A DNA stretch of 64,000 bases. It comes from Methanobacteriota archaeon. Its GTDB lineage: Archaea; Halobacteriota; Methanomicrobia; Methanomicrobiales; Methanoculleaceae. This document shows, one piece after another, positions 1 to 61,441 of this stretch; position 1 is the stretch's first letter, and each line of letters opens with the position of its first letter. The DNA lies in NCBI GenBank assembly GCA_016841955.1, contig JAENYE010000005.1, positions 49,849 to 113,848 on the forward strand, given 5' to 3'. The translations under genes and the position numbers were made by a program. The notes under the pieces are model-generated. The model searched no databases and was not told the DNA's origin. It saw only the letters and a list, made by a program, of their open reading frames with translations.

Positions 1-100
1 GCGATGGCGAGGTTCCGCAGGAACCGAGTTCAAGCCCCGTCAGGTGCGATGGCGAGGTTCCGCAGGAACCGAGTTCAAGCCCCGTCAGGTGCGATGGCGA
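1..100 (+). repeat. Perfect 45-bp tandem repeat with mini-hairpins
   Basis: Two identical 45-bp units occupy 1-45 and 46-90, and the first 10 bases of a third follow at 91-100. Each unit carries a perfect 6-bp hairpin with a GCA loop (GGTTCC-GCA-GGAACC at 11-25 and 56-70) followed by a GTCAGGT stretch also found in the other intergenic arrays of the window. The left edge is cut by the window, so more units may lie upstream. No gene is convincing here. It is not a CRISPR: the repeats are adjacent with no spacers. Confidence 0.9.
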
Positions 101-250
101 CAGGCCGGAGGGTGCGACGGTTCGTTACGCGACTGGCCTTAGTGCAGGAACTCGAGGAGGACCTTGTTCTTCGAGGGGACAGGGGGGGATGCTCCCCCCC
201 GTCAGCCCCACCCCCAATGGCGATAGCCACTGGAAATCCGTGCTTGGGAG
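101..250 (+). repeat. Foldback element copy R1 (partial) and array remnant
   Basis: Bases 175-246 match the right half of the dispersed foldback element: a G7-ATG-CTC7-type hairpin at 182-200, then the GTCAGCCCC block, then AATGGCGATA and the terminal TGGAAATCCGTG at 230-242. The left half (GGGCGGGGTGGGGG block) is missing and is replaced by array-like sequence at 101-174. From 251 to 450, downstream of the TBP gene, I see no gene and no further repeat, only GC-rich sequence. Confidence 0.75.
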
Positions 251-7650: not shown

Positions 7651-7992
7651 ATGACCGGGGAGGAGAAGAAGACGAGGCGTGGCCTCGCATCCACAGACGA
7701 AGCGACCCGGAAGCGTGTCGCGAGGATTGGCGGGATGGCGCCGCACACGAAACGGGGACTCCAGGCCGCTTCCCGCGAGACCCGGCGGCGGGTCGCGAGG
7801 GCCGGGGGGAGGGCCCCGCACGAGGCGAGAGGGCTCCAGGCCGCAAGTGAGGAGACCCGGAAGCGTGTTGCCCGGGCCGGCGGAAGGTCCCCGCACGGAG
7901 AGCGGGGACTTCAGGCTGCGTCCGAGGAGACTCGCAGGCGGGTCTCGCGAAGAGGTGACCGGTCTTCAGGCGGCTCGAAACGCTCCCCGTAG
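7651..7992 (+). CDS. KGG-like repeat protein (stress-type)
   Basis: A 113-residue, very Arg-rich protein built from four tandem 25-residue units of the form GL-A-(S/T)-ETRKRVAR-GG-(A/S)PH. The units are about residues 11-35, 36-60, 61-85 and 86-110; the last is degenerate (RRGDRSSGG). The ETR-RVAR-GG core resembles KGG-motif general stress proteins and plant Em-type proteins, which are hydrophilic and linked to desiccation or stress. The homology is by motif, so function is inferred. The repeats are also clear at DNA level (75-bp period), so copy number may vary between strains. Confidence 0.75.
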   Translation: MTGEEKKTRRGLASTDEATRKRVARIGGMAPHTKRGLQAASRETRRRVARAGGRAPHEARGLQAASEETRKRVARAGGRSPHGERGLQAASEETRRRVSRRGDRSSGGSKRSP

Positions 7993-10345: not shown

Positions 10346-10682
10346 AGAAAATAAAAAATAAGTGATAATATGGAGTTATTTGATGGGTGTGGAAGTCTGA
10401 TTGACCGATCCAGCATACGGTGTGCCGGGCGTCTGCGGGATACCCGAAAGCGGATGGGGGAGGGCCCGGGGGTGATGAAACCATGCAATCATCTTCCGTT
10501 GTGGCTGTTATCGCAGGGATGTCCGGGCGATGGAGTGGAGCAGTCTTTCTGCAGAGATGAGTGAATGGGGTGATTTAGATCCATCGCTGGAACGGTAGGG
10601 TGCGAAATATGGAACCGTGATCGAAAAATGGGTTTCGATTACCACTAGATACACCAGCCAAGAGACGATGAAAAAGTCCGAC

Positions 10683-10866
10683 ACACTGGACCGTGGGAGA
10701 ATCGCCACGCACTGCCCCCGCCCCTCAGGGGCGGGGGAGGAGGCCGGAGGCCAGGCGGGGTGGGGGTTACAGGTACCTCCTTATGAGGTGGAGACAGGGG
10801 AGGGGGGATGCTCCCCCCTCCCCGTCAGCCCCACCCCCAATGGCGATATCCGGTGGGAATCCGTGT
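10683..10866 (+). repeat. Foldback element copy R2 (most intact)
   Basis: The cleanest copy. The left end holds ACTGGACCGTGGGAG then ATCGCCA (to 10707); next come the CCCCGCCCC/GGGGCGGGG hairpin (about 10714-10737), GGCCGGAGGCC, GGGGTGGGGG (about 10758-10767), a GGGGAGGGGGG-ATG-CTCCCCCCTCCCC hairpin (about 10798-10823), CCCCACCCCC (about 10829-10838), TGGCGAT (10841-10847) and a right end GGTGGGAATCCGTG. ATCGCCA pairs with TGGCGAT, GGGGTGGGGG with CCCCACCCCC, and the central G and C runs pair, so the unit folds into one nested hairpin. No ORF inside is credible. Confidence 0.85.
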
Positions 10867-10972
10867 ACGAGGATGTGTACAGTTATCAAATTCGGCTTTC
10901 GAGAAACCTAGCGGATTTCAGTATTGCATTGCCAGAGTGAACTCAAACGCTTCACGCCAAAGTTCTCCCCCT

Positions 10973-22281: not shown

Positions 22282-22415
22282 GGGGGTTCCTTTCTGTGGT
22301 ACTTACTGGAACTAGGGGCGGCCGGGGAGTAAAGGGTTGTGATATAGCGTGTTTCGTAGCCCTGTTGTCAAGTGGCTTTCGTATGGAACTCGCACTCTTC
22401 CCCCAGCAGCCCGAT

Positions 22416-22785
22416 AACTGGACCGTGGGGACGGCGCACCTTCGCACCTCTGGTGCTCAAACTCCGTTCCTACCGGAACGTCGTTCTCCGGTGCTCGTGC
22501 TCCGGACGTTCTGTCCATCGCTAGTCCAAGGCCTAAGTTCTTCTCCTGCTCCTGCCCTTCGGCCAGTCGCATATCGCCACACACTGCCCCCGCCCCTTGG
22601 GGCGGGGAACGACTGCCGGAACGGCAGGAGTTCGAGCACCGTCAGGTGCGAATGAGGAGCGCGGAGCGCGGGTGGGGTGGGGGTTACAGGTGTCTGAGTA
22701 TAAGGTAGAGACAGGGGAGGGGGCGAGCCCCCCTCCCCGTCAGCCCCTCCCCAATGGCGATACTCCCACGGTCCACTAGACCGGG
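22416..22785 (+). repeat. Foldback element copy R3 with two inserted hairpin arrays
   Basis: The ends are ACTGGACCGTGGGG (22418-22430) and ATGGCGATACTCCCACGGTCCACT (to about 22777), inverted repeats of each other. One array of mini-hairpins (22431-22565) sits between the outer end and TATCGCCA; a second (about 22611-22665) follows the CCCCGCCCC hairpin. Hairpins include GCACC-TCT-GGTGC (22444-22456), CGTTCC-TACC-GGAACG (22465-22480), CTGCCG-GAA-CGGCAG (22613-22627) and GCACC-GTCA-GGTGC (22636-22649). The core G and C runs are at about 22715-22740. Confidence 0.85.
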
Positions 22786-22857
22786 ATTTGTGGCAACTTC
22801 TGCCTGTCCGACTATTTCTCCATCAAAAATGCTTGCCCTACCATGGAGGTCACCCAG

Positions 22858-22935
22858 AATGCCTCTGTCGGGAGGGGGACACCCCTTCGCACCGCAAGGT
22901 GCGAGGTGCGCAGTCCGATGGAAATCCGTTGATGG
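22858..22935 (+). repeat. Short element fragment with CGCACC-GCAA hairpin
   Basis: A fragment of the same family: GGGAGGGGG-ACA-CCCC, then the hairpin CGCACC-GCAA-GGTGCG (22888-22903), then the terminal GATGGAAATCCGTTG. It lies 70 bases from R3, so two insertions or a rearranged one share this gap. From 22936 to 23020 I see nothing further. Confidence 0.65.
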
Positions 22936-23020
22936 CCAGTCTGAACACCAAAACAGCGTTAAACGGTCTCATATCAAACCCAGGCACCATCAGCCCCGGG
23001 CCAACCCCGAAAAAAAGTGG

Positions 23021-25904: not shown

Positions 25905-25907
25905 GGT

Positions 25908-25957
25908 TTTTGGGTTTTTTTCAGGGCAGGAGATCCTGCTTTCTTTTTTTTGGGGTT
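25908..25957 (+). terminator. T-rich transcription terminator
   Basis: Immediately after the YbjQ gene there are three T runs (TTTTT, TTTTTTT, TTTTTTTT) separated by short G-containing segments and a small AGGAGATCCT hairpin (about 25930-25940). Oligo-T tracts terminate archaeal RNA polymerase. Confidence 0.65.
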
Positions 25958-26075
25958 CGCGGGCACAAGCGGAGCTCGTAGTTATGGGGAAGGAGTCTGA
26001 CGCCTTAGCAGGTGTAACTCTCTTTCTGGTAAGGAGGCTGGTGGTGAAGTGCCCGTAGGATATTGTGTAGACCCA

Positions 26076-26350
26076 TACACGGATTCCCACCGGGCTGCGC
26101 ACCTGACGGTGCTCATGCTCCGGACGTTCCGTCCATCGCATATCGCCATGACTGCCCCCGCCCCGGGGCGGGGAACGACTGGCCGAAGGGCAGGAGTTCG
26201 AGCACCGAAGGTGCGAATGAGGAGGCCGGAGGCCGGGCGGGGTGGGGGTTATAGCTATCCTCGTATGAGTTGGAGACAGGGGAGGGGGCAGGCCCCCTCC
26301 CCGTCAGCCCCTCCCCCATGGCGATACTCCCACGGTCCACTGTACCGGGC
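26076..26350 (+). repeat. Foldback element copy R4 with arrays
   Basis: The left end is type B (CACGGATTCCCACCGG, 26079-26094) and the right end type A (GGCGATACTCCCACGGTCCACTGTACC, to about 26346). Between the left end and TATCGCCA (about 26141) an array holds GCACC-TGAC-GGTGC (26099-26112) and GGACG-TTC-CGTCC (26122-26134). After the CCCCGCCCC hairpin a second array holds GCACC-GAA-GGTGC (26202-26214). The core hairpin GGGGAGGGGG/CCCCCTCCCC lies at about 26279-26302. The remaining bases of 25958-26474 show no gene. Confidence 0.85.
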
Positions 26351-26474
26351 TTTATCCTCGCTCGACTGTTTTGACCCTTGAGCGTCACAGACATGAATAA
26401 CGACGCCCTGCAGCGATTCCATGTTCAACCGCCGCAAAACGTGAGTCCCAGAGGAACAAAACTCCTGGACTTGC

Positions 26475-30909: not shown

Positions 30910-31255
30910 GAGAGGGAGAGTGCGGCCGACGGTGGCACATCCTGTGCTGCTGAGGAAAGTCCTCCCACCGGCCAGACACGCAGCCGCATGCAAGTGCGGG
31001 TGGCGAGAGTCACGGCAATGACACAGAAACGACACGGCCCGCCGTCAGTGATGAAACGACCGAGCCCTCCGTTCGGGGGGCGAGAGGCGCGGGTTTCCGC
31101 GCAACTCGTTGAACGTAGCGGCGGGATACGATGAAACGGTGAACCCCTGCGGGTGCAAGCCAGAATAGGGCAGATGGATTGTCTGGTATCCGCCCAGGTA
31201 TGGCGCGTAGCTGAATGCCGCACAGAACAGAAGGAGGCTTACTCCTCCCACTCTT
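30910..31255 (+). ncRNA. rnpB: Archaeal RNase P RNA
   Basis: The catalytic RNA of the 5'-tRNA processing enzyme. Universal elements are in order: GAGGAAAGTCC (about 30952-30962), the GGCGAGAGT and CGGCAATGACACAGAAACGACACGG type region, GGGTGCAAGCC (about 31149-31159) and the 3' CACAGAACAGAAGGAGGCTTA. The two ends pair imperfectly (AGAGGGAGAGT with ACTCCTCCCACTCT) to form P1. The exact ends are uncertain by a few bases. About 345 nt is normal for euryarchaea. Confidence 0.92.
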
Positions 31256-32878: not shown

Positions 32879-32962
32879 CACGTCTGCCTGATAGGTTGCT
32901 CCCCCTGATATTAACTCTGATGCCGGACGCGGGAACCGGCGACGGCCGCCGGGGGTGCTCCC

Positions 32963-37115: not shown

Positions 37116-37270
37116 GAGGGGATGGGGGTTCGGCACGGGCCTCTGTTGAGTCTTTGGGGGTCGGGTGATTCTTAAAGTCAGGGCTTGCTGCGCTTCTGCG
37201 CGTTGTGGTTCGGGGCTGGTGCTCCAATTCATTGTTCAGTGAGATCTAACGACTTCTTATCCTGCGGATC

Positions 37271-37600
37271 CATCCACGGCTTTCCACTAAATATCGCCAT
37301 TGGGGGAGGGGCTGACGGGGAGTGCGACGTTCCGATAGGAACGGAGCTCGACCACCGTCAGGTGGGGAGGGGGGCACGCCCCCCTCCCCTGTCTCCACAT
37401 ACTAAGGAATTCCTGTAACCCCCACCTCACCCGGCCTCCGGCCTCCTCCTCCGCCCCTGTGGGGCGGAGGCAGTGCGTGGCGATATGCGACTGGCTGAAG
37501 GGCAGGAGCAGGAGAAGACCGAAGGTCTTGGATTGGCGAGGTTCCAGTAGGAACAGAGTTCGAGCACTGCAAGTGCGTAGTCAGGTGGAAAGCCGTATGC
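37271..37600 (-). repeat. Foldback element copy R5 (reverse) with arrays
   Basis: Reverse-orientation copy. The left boundary is CCACGGCTTTCCACTAAATATCGCCA (37274-37300) and the right boundary is GGTGGAAAGCCG (37584-37595), both type B ends. An array inside the core holds CGTTCC-GATA-GGAACG (37328-37343) and CCACC-GTCA-GGTGG (37352-37365). A second array (37481-37583), between TGGCGATA and the right end, holds AAGACC-GAA-GGTCTT (37515-37529) and GCACT-GCA-AGTGC (37564-37576). The interval 37116-37270 has no gene. Confidence 0.85.
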
Positions 37601-37679
37601 AGGTTTATGCGACCGGCGTGTGCCTGAATATTAAAAGGGACGCAGGCCGGGGATCCTGGAATCCCCTCCCTCTACTCCC

Positions 37680-37790
37680 CTACTCGAAGACCTCCGGTCT
37701 TTTCGAACTCCTTCCCCTGCGGGGAAGTCGTCCTTCGCACCTTAACGGTGCTCACGCTCCGGCCCTTCGGCCCGTCGCGCCCATCCCCGG
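37680..37790 (-). repeat. Mini-hairpin array running into the 3' end of aroC
   Basis: Contains CGAAGACC-TCC-GGTCTT (about 37685-37701) and CTTCCCC-TGC-GGGGAAG (37711-37727), then the units GCACCTTAACGGTGC and CTCACGCTCCGGCCC that recur in the other arrays. The last of these lie inside the aroC frame (37742-37780). Confidence 0.8.
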
Positions 37791-48440: not shown

Positions 48441-48664
48441 TAGTGCGAGTTGGAGACAAAGGGGAGTGCGAGCGTAGCGAGCATGAGAAACTCGAAGAGT
48501 TTCGAGGGGGGGCACGCCCCTCCCCACCTGACGGTGGTCGAGCTCCGCTCCTTCGAACCTTCGGTGCTCACGCTCCGGTTCTAACGAACCGTCGCGCTTC
48601 GGAACGTCGCACTCCCTGTCAGCCCCTCCCCAATGGCGATATCCAATGGAAATCCGTGCCAGGG
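48441..48664 (+). repeat. Foldback element copy R6a (right half with inserted array)
   Basis: Runs from GTTGGAGACA to TGGCGATATCCAATGGAAATCCGTGC. The core G/C hairpin is interrupted by an array flanked by GGAGTGCG (48463-48470) and CGCACTCCC (about 48608-48616), which are inverted. Hairpins are GAAACTC-GAA-GAGTTTC (48487-48503), CCACC-TGAC-GGTGG (about 48525-48538) and GGTTC-TAAC-GAACC (48577-48590). The left half of an element lies separately at 48775-48860. The gap 48665-48774 is unremarkable, with no gene. Confidence 0.8.
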
Positions 48665-48774
48665 ATGCGGATAAACAGGACTCCGTTTCCTCTTAACTAC
48701 GATTTTCATGTGAGACACATCTTGGCTCTGCAGATTAGCCTTGCCCAGATCGCATACACCCATCAACCGATTTA

Positions 48775-48990
48775 CCTAGACATCGCCACGCACTGCCCCC
48801 GCCCCCCCCCCGGGGCGGGGGAGGAGGCCGGAGGCCGGGCGGGGTGGGGGAGACACCCATCGCACTCCCTATTGTCCCTACAGCGAAGACTCGGTCTTCT
48901 CATGCTCGCTATGCTCACACAGCGAAGAACTTCGTTCTTCTTTATGTTCCCTTTGGTCACACAACGAAACCTTTCGGTCTTCACGAACCG
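48775..48990 (+). repeat. Foldback element copy R6b (left half) plus hairpin array
   Basis: Starts ACATCGCCACGCACTGCCCCC, has the C-run/G-run hairpin (about 48794-48821), GGCCGGAGGCC and GGGCGGGGTGGGGG (to 48850), then breaks into an array with GAAGAC-TCG-GTCTTC (48885-48899) and GAAGAAC-TTC-GTTCTTC (48924-48940). Its right end supplies the stop of the ferredoxin fragment. Confidence 0.8.
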
Positions 48991-61327: not shown

Positions 61328-61441
61328 GCCCGGTACACTGGACCGTGGTGGCTATCGCGTCTGGGGAGGGGTTTCAGGGGAGGGGGGAGACCCCCTCCCC
61401 TGTCCCCACCCCCCGTGGCGATATCCAGTGGAAATCCGTGC
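61328..61441 (+). repeat. Foldback element copy R7 (short)
   Basis: The left end CCCGGTACACTGGACCGTGG is the reverse complement of the right end of R4. The core has GGGGAGGGGGGAGACCCCCTCCCC and the right end is GTGGCGATATCCAGTGGAAATCCGTG. It lacks the CCCCGCCCC/GGGGCGGGG hairpin and GGCCGGAGGCC of R2. It lies between the PspC gene and uvrB. From 61442 to 61521 nothing else is evident. Confidence 0.85.

Follow-up and report, generated by a model that had tools for sequence, protein, structure and literature searches.

A probable genus-specific family of composite foldback DNA between the genes of Methanoculleus

The window analysed here is a 64-kb stretch (positions 49849-113848 of contig C6) of the source genome (G000; 2.43 Mb, nine contigs), in which a palindromic element at 10683-10866, the focal copy, is accompanied by relatives in further gaps. 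The relatives listed in the original prediction are all real by sequence comparison, and a 17-mer from the core of the element is matched seven times in the window against 0.95 expected, a count never reached in 100 shuffles. As had been claimed, none falls inside a gene, all eight sites in the window (8/8) lying between long open frames. For 48441-48850 and 61328-61441 the kinship stood but the structure had to be corrected, the former consisting of inside-out halves and the latter being a short form. The features are given below, where P denotes the half with the CCCCCGCCCC/GGGGCGGGGG hairpin and a GGCC-GGA-GGCC hairpin, Q the half with the GGGGAGGGGGG/CCCCCCTCCCC hairpin and GTCAGCCCC, and A and B the arms outside the core:

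1-135, plus strand: tandem mini-hairpin modules beside a truncated copy, with a 45-nt unit in at least two perfect copies (repeat family D11)
175-246, plus strand: truncated copy, Q half and A arm
10667-10707, plus strand: the focal copy's B arm, read in the direction of the core (GATGAAAAAGTCCGACACACTGGACCGTGGGAGAATCGCCA); arm limits from the conservation profile
10715-10752, plus strand: P half of the focal copy, with the CCCCCGCCCC/GGGGCGGGGG hairpin and the GGCC-GGA-GGCC hairpin (GNA loop)
10797-10838, minus strand: Q half of the focal copy, with the GGGGAGGGGGG/CCCCCCTCCCC hairpin and a third G-run, GGGGGTGGGG (minus strand), in the pattern of a class-II intrastrand triplex
10841-10869, plus strand: TGGCGAT and A arm of the focal copy
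22416-22785, plus strand: full copy enlarged by hairpin modules, in a segment of about 385 nt that is inverted relative to the genomes G005 and G017
26076-26350, plus strand: full copy in the order A-P-Q-B with a module in P, in reverse orientation in G005 and G017
32882-32962, no strand: 81-nt gap without the element, occupied in G012, G005, G017 and G045; read as a loss by deletion
37271-37600, minus strand: full copy carrying modules both within the Q hairpin and past P, in reverse orientation in G012, G005, G045 and G017
48441-48850, plus strand: inside-out copy, with Q half and A arm, a 141-nt spacer, then an arm and P half; the same form occurs at position 118824 of contig C6 and in G044
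61328-61441, plus strand: short form without the P half, consisting of B arm, palindromic Q and A arm

Two other features of the window are three 75-nt tandem repeats within a long open frame (7699-7947; repeat family D2), which are unrelated to the element, and the archaeal RNase P RNA (30910-31253; 211 bits, Rfam).

The focal copy is the nested palindrome that had been predicted, as borne out by the coordinates of its arms and hairpins: the inner arms pair 10750-10773 with 10821-10844, a perfect 12-nt hairpin occupies the centre (10797-10808/10812-10823), a second perfect hairpin of 11 nt lies at 10715-10725/10727-10737, and GGCCGGAGGCC corresponds to 10742-10752. The folding energy of the palindrome as single-stranded DNA is -60.5 kcal/mol, whereas shuffles give -41.6 +/- 3.4 (z = -5.5). 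Its predicted size, however, did not hold, as the real unit is larger and comprises a GC core of about 150 nt between two different arms. The P and Q halves lie between ATCGCCA and TGGCGAT, with the arms outside; the consensus of arm A is CCCRTGCACGGMTTTCCAnnGGATATCGCCA. Conservation ends sharply beyond the arms, with the information content at background about 17 nt past GTGGACC on the B side and dropping to background about 6 nt past CACGG on the A side.

The arrangement of these parts varies considerably. Among 130 core records, the configuration B-QP-A is seen in 47, A-QP-B in 15, B-QP-B in nine and A-QP-A in eight, with an unclear arm in the remainder; these ratios are approximate because the record list is mechanical and includes some false joins. 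Short forms without the P half recur at the loci L024 and L029, as well as at 61328-61441 in the window. The inside-out forms have the order Q, arm, spacer, arm, P; many of them share a constant spacer of 62-82 nt, and for these a tandem arrangement of the unit is the best reading. Copies stand head-to-tail in tandem with near-constant spacers at L067 (in G023) and L162 (in G003), an arrangement that points to unequal recombination or to a circular form. An RNAalifold analysis of 72 cores gave a covariation term of -0.29, with a double change in only 3/25 pairs and mostly invariant G/C stems; thus, much of the core is held by sequence identity, and the stems offer weak evidence.

The Q half has an additional peculiarity. 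Class-II intrastrand triplexes are described as having three stems of 6-15 nt and loops of 1-6 nt, with T-A-A or T-A-T triplets allowed in C-G-G stems (PMC4666352). The Q half presents a third strand of the form GGGGG(A/T)GGGG, a CTGAC loop, the purine strand GGGGAGGGGGG, another loop and the pyrimidine strand CCCCCCTCCCC, and a parse by the ITxF rules accommodates 61 of the 72 aligned cores, with loops mostly of 5 and 3-5 nt. Exactly a T-A-A or T-A-T triplet is found in 57 of these 61, the variable base of the third strand being A in 31/61, T in 30/61 and never C (G is excluded by the design of the parse), counts that are to be read in the light of the shared descent of the copies. At the level of sequence, the Q half fits the class-II intrastrand-triplex pattern.

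A further component is provided by mini-hairpin modules of about 40 nt, inserted in and around the unit. In the source genome, where a perfect hairpin has GA on either side, the loop is GNA in 13/22 triloops and GNNA in all tetraloops (12/12); in the relatives the corresponding figures are 74/115 and 34/49, versus only 6-12% with such loops among other hairpins. When the stem is fixed as GAGCACC/GGTGCGA, loops of the type d(cGNAg) or d(cGNNAg) occupy 1,161 of 1,313 sites (88%) across 18 genomes, with none in a reversed-pattern control. GNNA loops, like GNA loops, are stable in DNA, and GA steps adjoining a stem can form sheared pairs. The middle bases of the module loops are variable, and in most of the tetraloops observed the third position is a pyrimidine, contrary to the GNRA rule of RNA, which favours selection on DNA. 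According to Yoshizawa 1997, as cited in PMC6479982, GNA loops give DNA mini-hairpins of very high stability in which G and A form a sheared pair. The prevalence of the loop rule therefore indicates that selection is probably on folded single-stranded DNA. Comparison of G005 with G017 at the same gap shows that a single 38-nt module has been cleanly inserted into the Q hairpin. The module pattern is present in 18 of the 19 genomes of the genus sampled and, among the 25 genera sampled, in no other except for a single 71%-complete bin (G066) that may be contaminated. It is conceivable, though we would put this forward only tentatively, that the modules constitute a new class of dispersed repeat that spreads via single-stranded DNA folding, characterized by free stems, GA flanks, GNA/GNNA loops on the same strand and clean insertion into palindromes.

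In the source genome as a whole, 66 BLAST places group into 40 loci, the best paralogue having E = 2.6e-51. The predicted density of one copy per 9 kb holds locally in the window but not genome-wide, where it is about one per 60 kb; the 934-kb contig C3 carries only six loci against 10 on C6 (and six on C9), so that the window is atypical in this respect. Of the assembly's 18 contig ends, seven lie within copies of the element (the end of C1, both ends of C2, the start of C3 and the ends of C4, C7 and C8). The element was recovered from all 24 Methanoculleus congeners of a first sample (24/24), with 4-44 BLAST places each, while three of twelve other genera gave one or two weak matches each and no recognizable full element. 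Among named genomes, matches to a core 19-mer are almost confined to records of Methanoculleus or to Methanomicrobiales/Euryarchaeota bins; those in Thauera and Prevotellamassilia were set aside as chance matches, the remainder of the element being missing there.

We also uncovered a transposon shell around a minority of the copies. It has 16-bp terminal inverted repeats (TIRs), GGCTYTGTTGAAACCC, and bounds the loci L011, L012, L039 and L060; a scan with the TIR pattern finds this end in 22 of 35 congeners, with none for the reversed control. Of 26 paired shells, 13 have a perfect 8-bp target duplication and 18 match at 7-8 of 8 positions, where permutation leads one to expect about 0.5 each for 7 and 8 bp; five of the 13 shells with perfect duplications carry the core. 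The comparison of occupied and empty gaps that had been proposed yielded two precise empty sites for core-bearing shells, each with a single target copy. The shell at L039 (position 101884 of contig C9 of the source genome), flanked by duplicated GAAAAAAC, is absent in G012, which has one uninterrupted target that is one A shorter; conversely, the core-bearing shell L107 of G015, flanked by duplicated CGAGGTCC, is absent in the source genome, which has one intact CGAGGTCC. These two empty sites settle that the shelled copies are mobile.

The matching transposase end that had been called for was likewise found, in a congener, as an IS5-family element of 1,010 bp that has this TIR and a perfect 8-bp duplication. 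Its protein product, of 297 aa and with the DDE domain PF01609, passes the NCBIfam IS5-family cut-off and has relatives in G041 and G022 and as fragments in G012. The claim that no transposase is present held when the source genome was searched for relatives of this enzyme, none being found. We infer that the shells may be mobilized in trans by an IS5-family transposase. Shells also come with other contents: some, of 96-245 bp, lack the core; a second cargo type, with a different palindrome (CACGCGAAGGCGCGAAG...), is seen in shells of 207-245 bp with perfect duplications (L106, L112, L113, L117 and L128); and a shell at 1501-2733 of L109 (G020, contig C1, 222314), also with a perfect 8-bp duplication, encloses about twenty tandem 54-nt hairpin modules.

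Most copies, including those in the window, have no such shell. A TIR within 150 nt is present at 7 of 84 B-arm flanks and 11 of 103 A-arm flanks, and the similarity to the shell is bimodal, being clear in about 10% and at background in nearly all others. No target duplication at the A and B arms rises above permutation at any fixed offset in 75 records, and the window copies have neither an adjoining TIR end nor a duplication at their arms. We regard the arm-core-arm unit as independent of the shell: either the shell acquired it, or the unit escaped from the shell long ago. The reading of the family as a MITE is accordingly right for the shelled tenth, with its TIRs, 8-bp duplications and empty sites, and unproven for the window copies, which lack shell and duplication and, in the gaps examined, have counterparts in relatives.

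At fixed positions, the window gaps examined are occupied in relatives too, mainly by reoriented versions. The focal gap contains the element, in several forms, in the source genome, G012, G017, G005, G006, G042, G020, G003 and G015, and recognizable copies are absent from it in others, such as G009, G013, G048, G010 and G011. Flips, as judged by comparison between species, are seen in three gaps: at 22282-23020 the segment inverted relative to G005 and G017 takes in about 80 nt of flank; at 25905-26424 the source genome and G012 are opposite in orientation to G005 and G017; and at 37233-37741 its orientation is the reverse of that in four relatives. In the gap at 32882-32962 a copy is present in each of the four relatives compared (4/4), which makes a loss in the source genome likelier than an insertion in the relatives. 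The species G020, G044 and G042, with about 94-96% identity in a neighbouring gene, carry different versions of the element in the same gaps. Inverted repeats that recombine or switch template would explain such flips and losses.

Taken together, these observations are probably best explained by a genus-specific composite foldback DNA family, in which a self-pairing unit, a TIR shell around roughly a tenth of the units and mini-hairpin modules are combined, and whose units flip, shrink and gain modules. The core with its arms A and B would fold back as single-stranded DNA, its G-rich half forming a hairpin or an intrastrand triplex; about a tenth of the units would travel as cargo of the non-autonomous shell, which an IS5-family transposase would insert between genes with an 8-bp duplication; and modules with stable DNA loops would insert into and beside the unit. 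Within a gap, the inverted halves and the modules might serve as points of recombination or template switching, whereby the unit could flip, drop one half, swap arms, become duplicated or add modules while the gap remains occupied. The driver of these changes would, we infer, be DNA folding. Against this account count the lack of shell traces and duplications in nearly all shell-less copies, the slight covariation of the core stems, the failure to find a relative of the matching transposase in the source genome and the fact that the flips come from comparisons between species.

A rather unlikely alternative would see functional sites between genes that selection maintains, be they terminators, insulators, nucleoid or supercoil sites, or structured RNAs, with mobility being incidental. 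The conserved GC core, the intergenic position and the occupation of the same gaps across species despite flips and replacements would suit this interpretation, whereas the free change of orientation, halves and arms at one gap, the loss from a gap in the source genome and the several congeners without a focal copy all speak against it. Moreover, at the gathering threshold Rfam returns nothing for the element, the RNase P RNA being its sole match in the window; sub-threshold matches to eukaryotic microRNA models were weak and judged to be chance.

Less probable still is a single MITE family whose TIR-less copies, the window's included, are old insertions with decayed ends. That both arms are common to core-bearing shells and shell-less copies, and that the latter, being common to several species in the gaps examined, seem to be older, is what one would then expect; decay, however, would erode the arms too, while conservation stops sharply at them, and it sits poorly with the bimodal distribution of shell similarity. 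Highly improbable, finally, are REP/BIME-like repeats moved by a REP-associated tyrosine transposase, since the Y1 transposase domain (PF01797) is absent from the source genome, in a search whose control finds it in five reference genomes, and neither a GTAG nor a CGTC tag was seen in the modules read, even though small hairpins abound between genes, in both orientations and partly clustered.

The composite family links a transposon shell with proven empty sites, a GC palindrome potentially capable of forming a triplex and hairpins under DNA-specific loop rules. Its many copies, spread over more than 30 related genomes, also offer a natural series in which to study how foldback DNA flips and grows between genes. 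On the practical side, the presence of copies at contig ends indicates that the repeats probably break short-read assemblies. A literature search for Methanoculleus MITEs and palindromic repeats gave no earlier account of these repeats beyond satellites of 45 and 51 nt in M. marisnigri; the combination of parts and the loop rule appear to be undescribed in searchable papers, though the parts resemble known kinds.

The M. marisnigri satellite families are given by length and species (PMC6749651), and they fit the modules (the 45-nt tandem at 1-90 of the window and the 54-nt one of G020) in unit length. Like REP/BIMEs (PMC3733652), the modules are multicopy intergenic palindromes of small size (20-40 bp) that form hairpins and lie in either orientation; they differ in that no GTAG tag is seen, that there is no Y1 transposase and that variable stems lie between constant GA flanks and enclose GN(N)A loops. 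With IS5-family MITEs the family shares 16-bp TIRs, 8-bp duplications, precise empty sites, a non-coding nature and the presence, in congeners, of an IS5-family element bearing this TIR. It differs in that MITE traits are confined to about a tenth of the copies, in that the shell shares little beyond the TIR with the 1,010-bp element and in that the foldback core also occurs free of the shell. The closest parallels to the Q half are the intrastrand triplex elements of Escherichia coli (BoxC/TM-ECO; PMC4666352), which likewise have consecutive G-rich third, purine and pyrimidine strands with stem and loop sizes within the same limits, allow a T-A-A or T-A-T triplet, are intergenic and are tied to local instability. 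For those elements no link to mobile elements was found (PMC4666352); the present family, unlike them, has another sequence and an archaeal host, includes the triplex pattern as one part of a larger palindrome that also has arms and a second half, and is partly transposon-borne.
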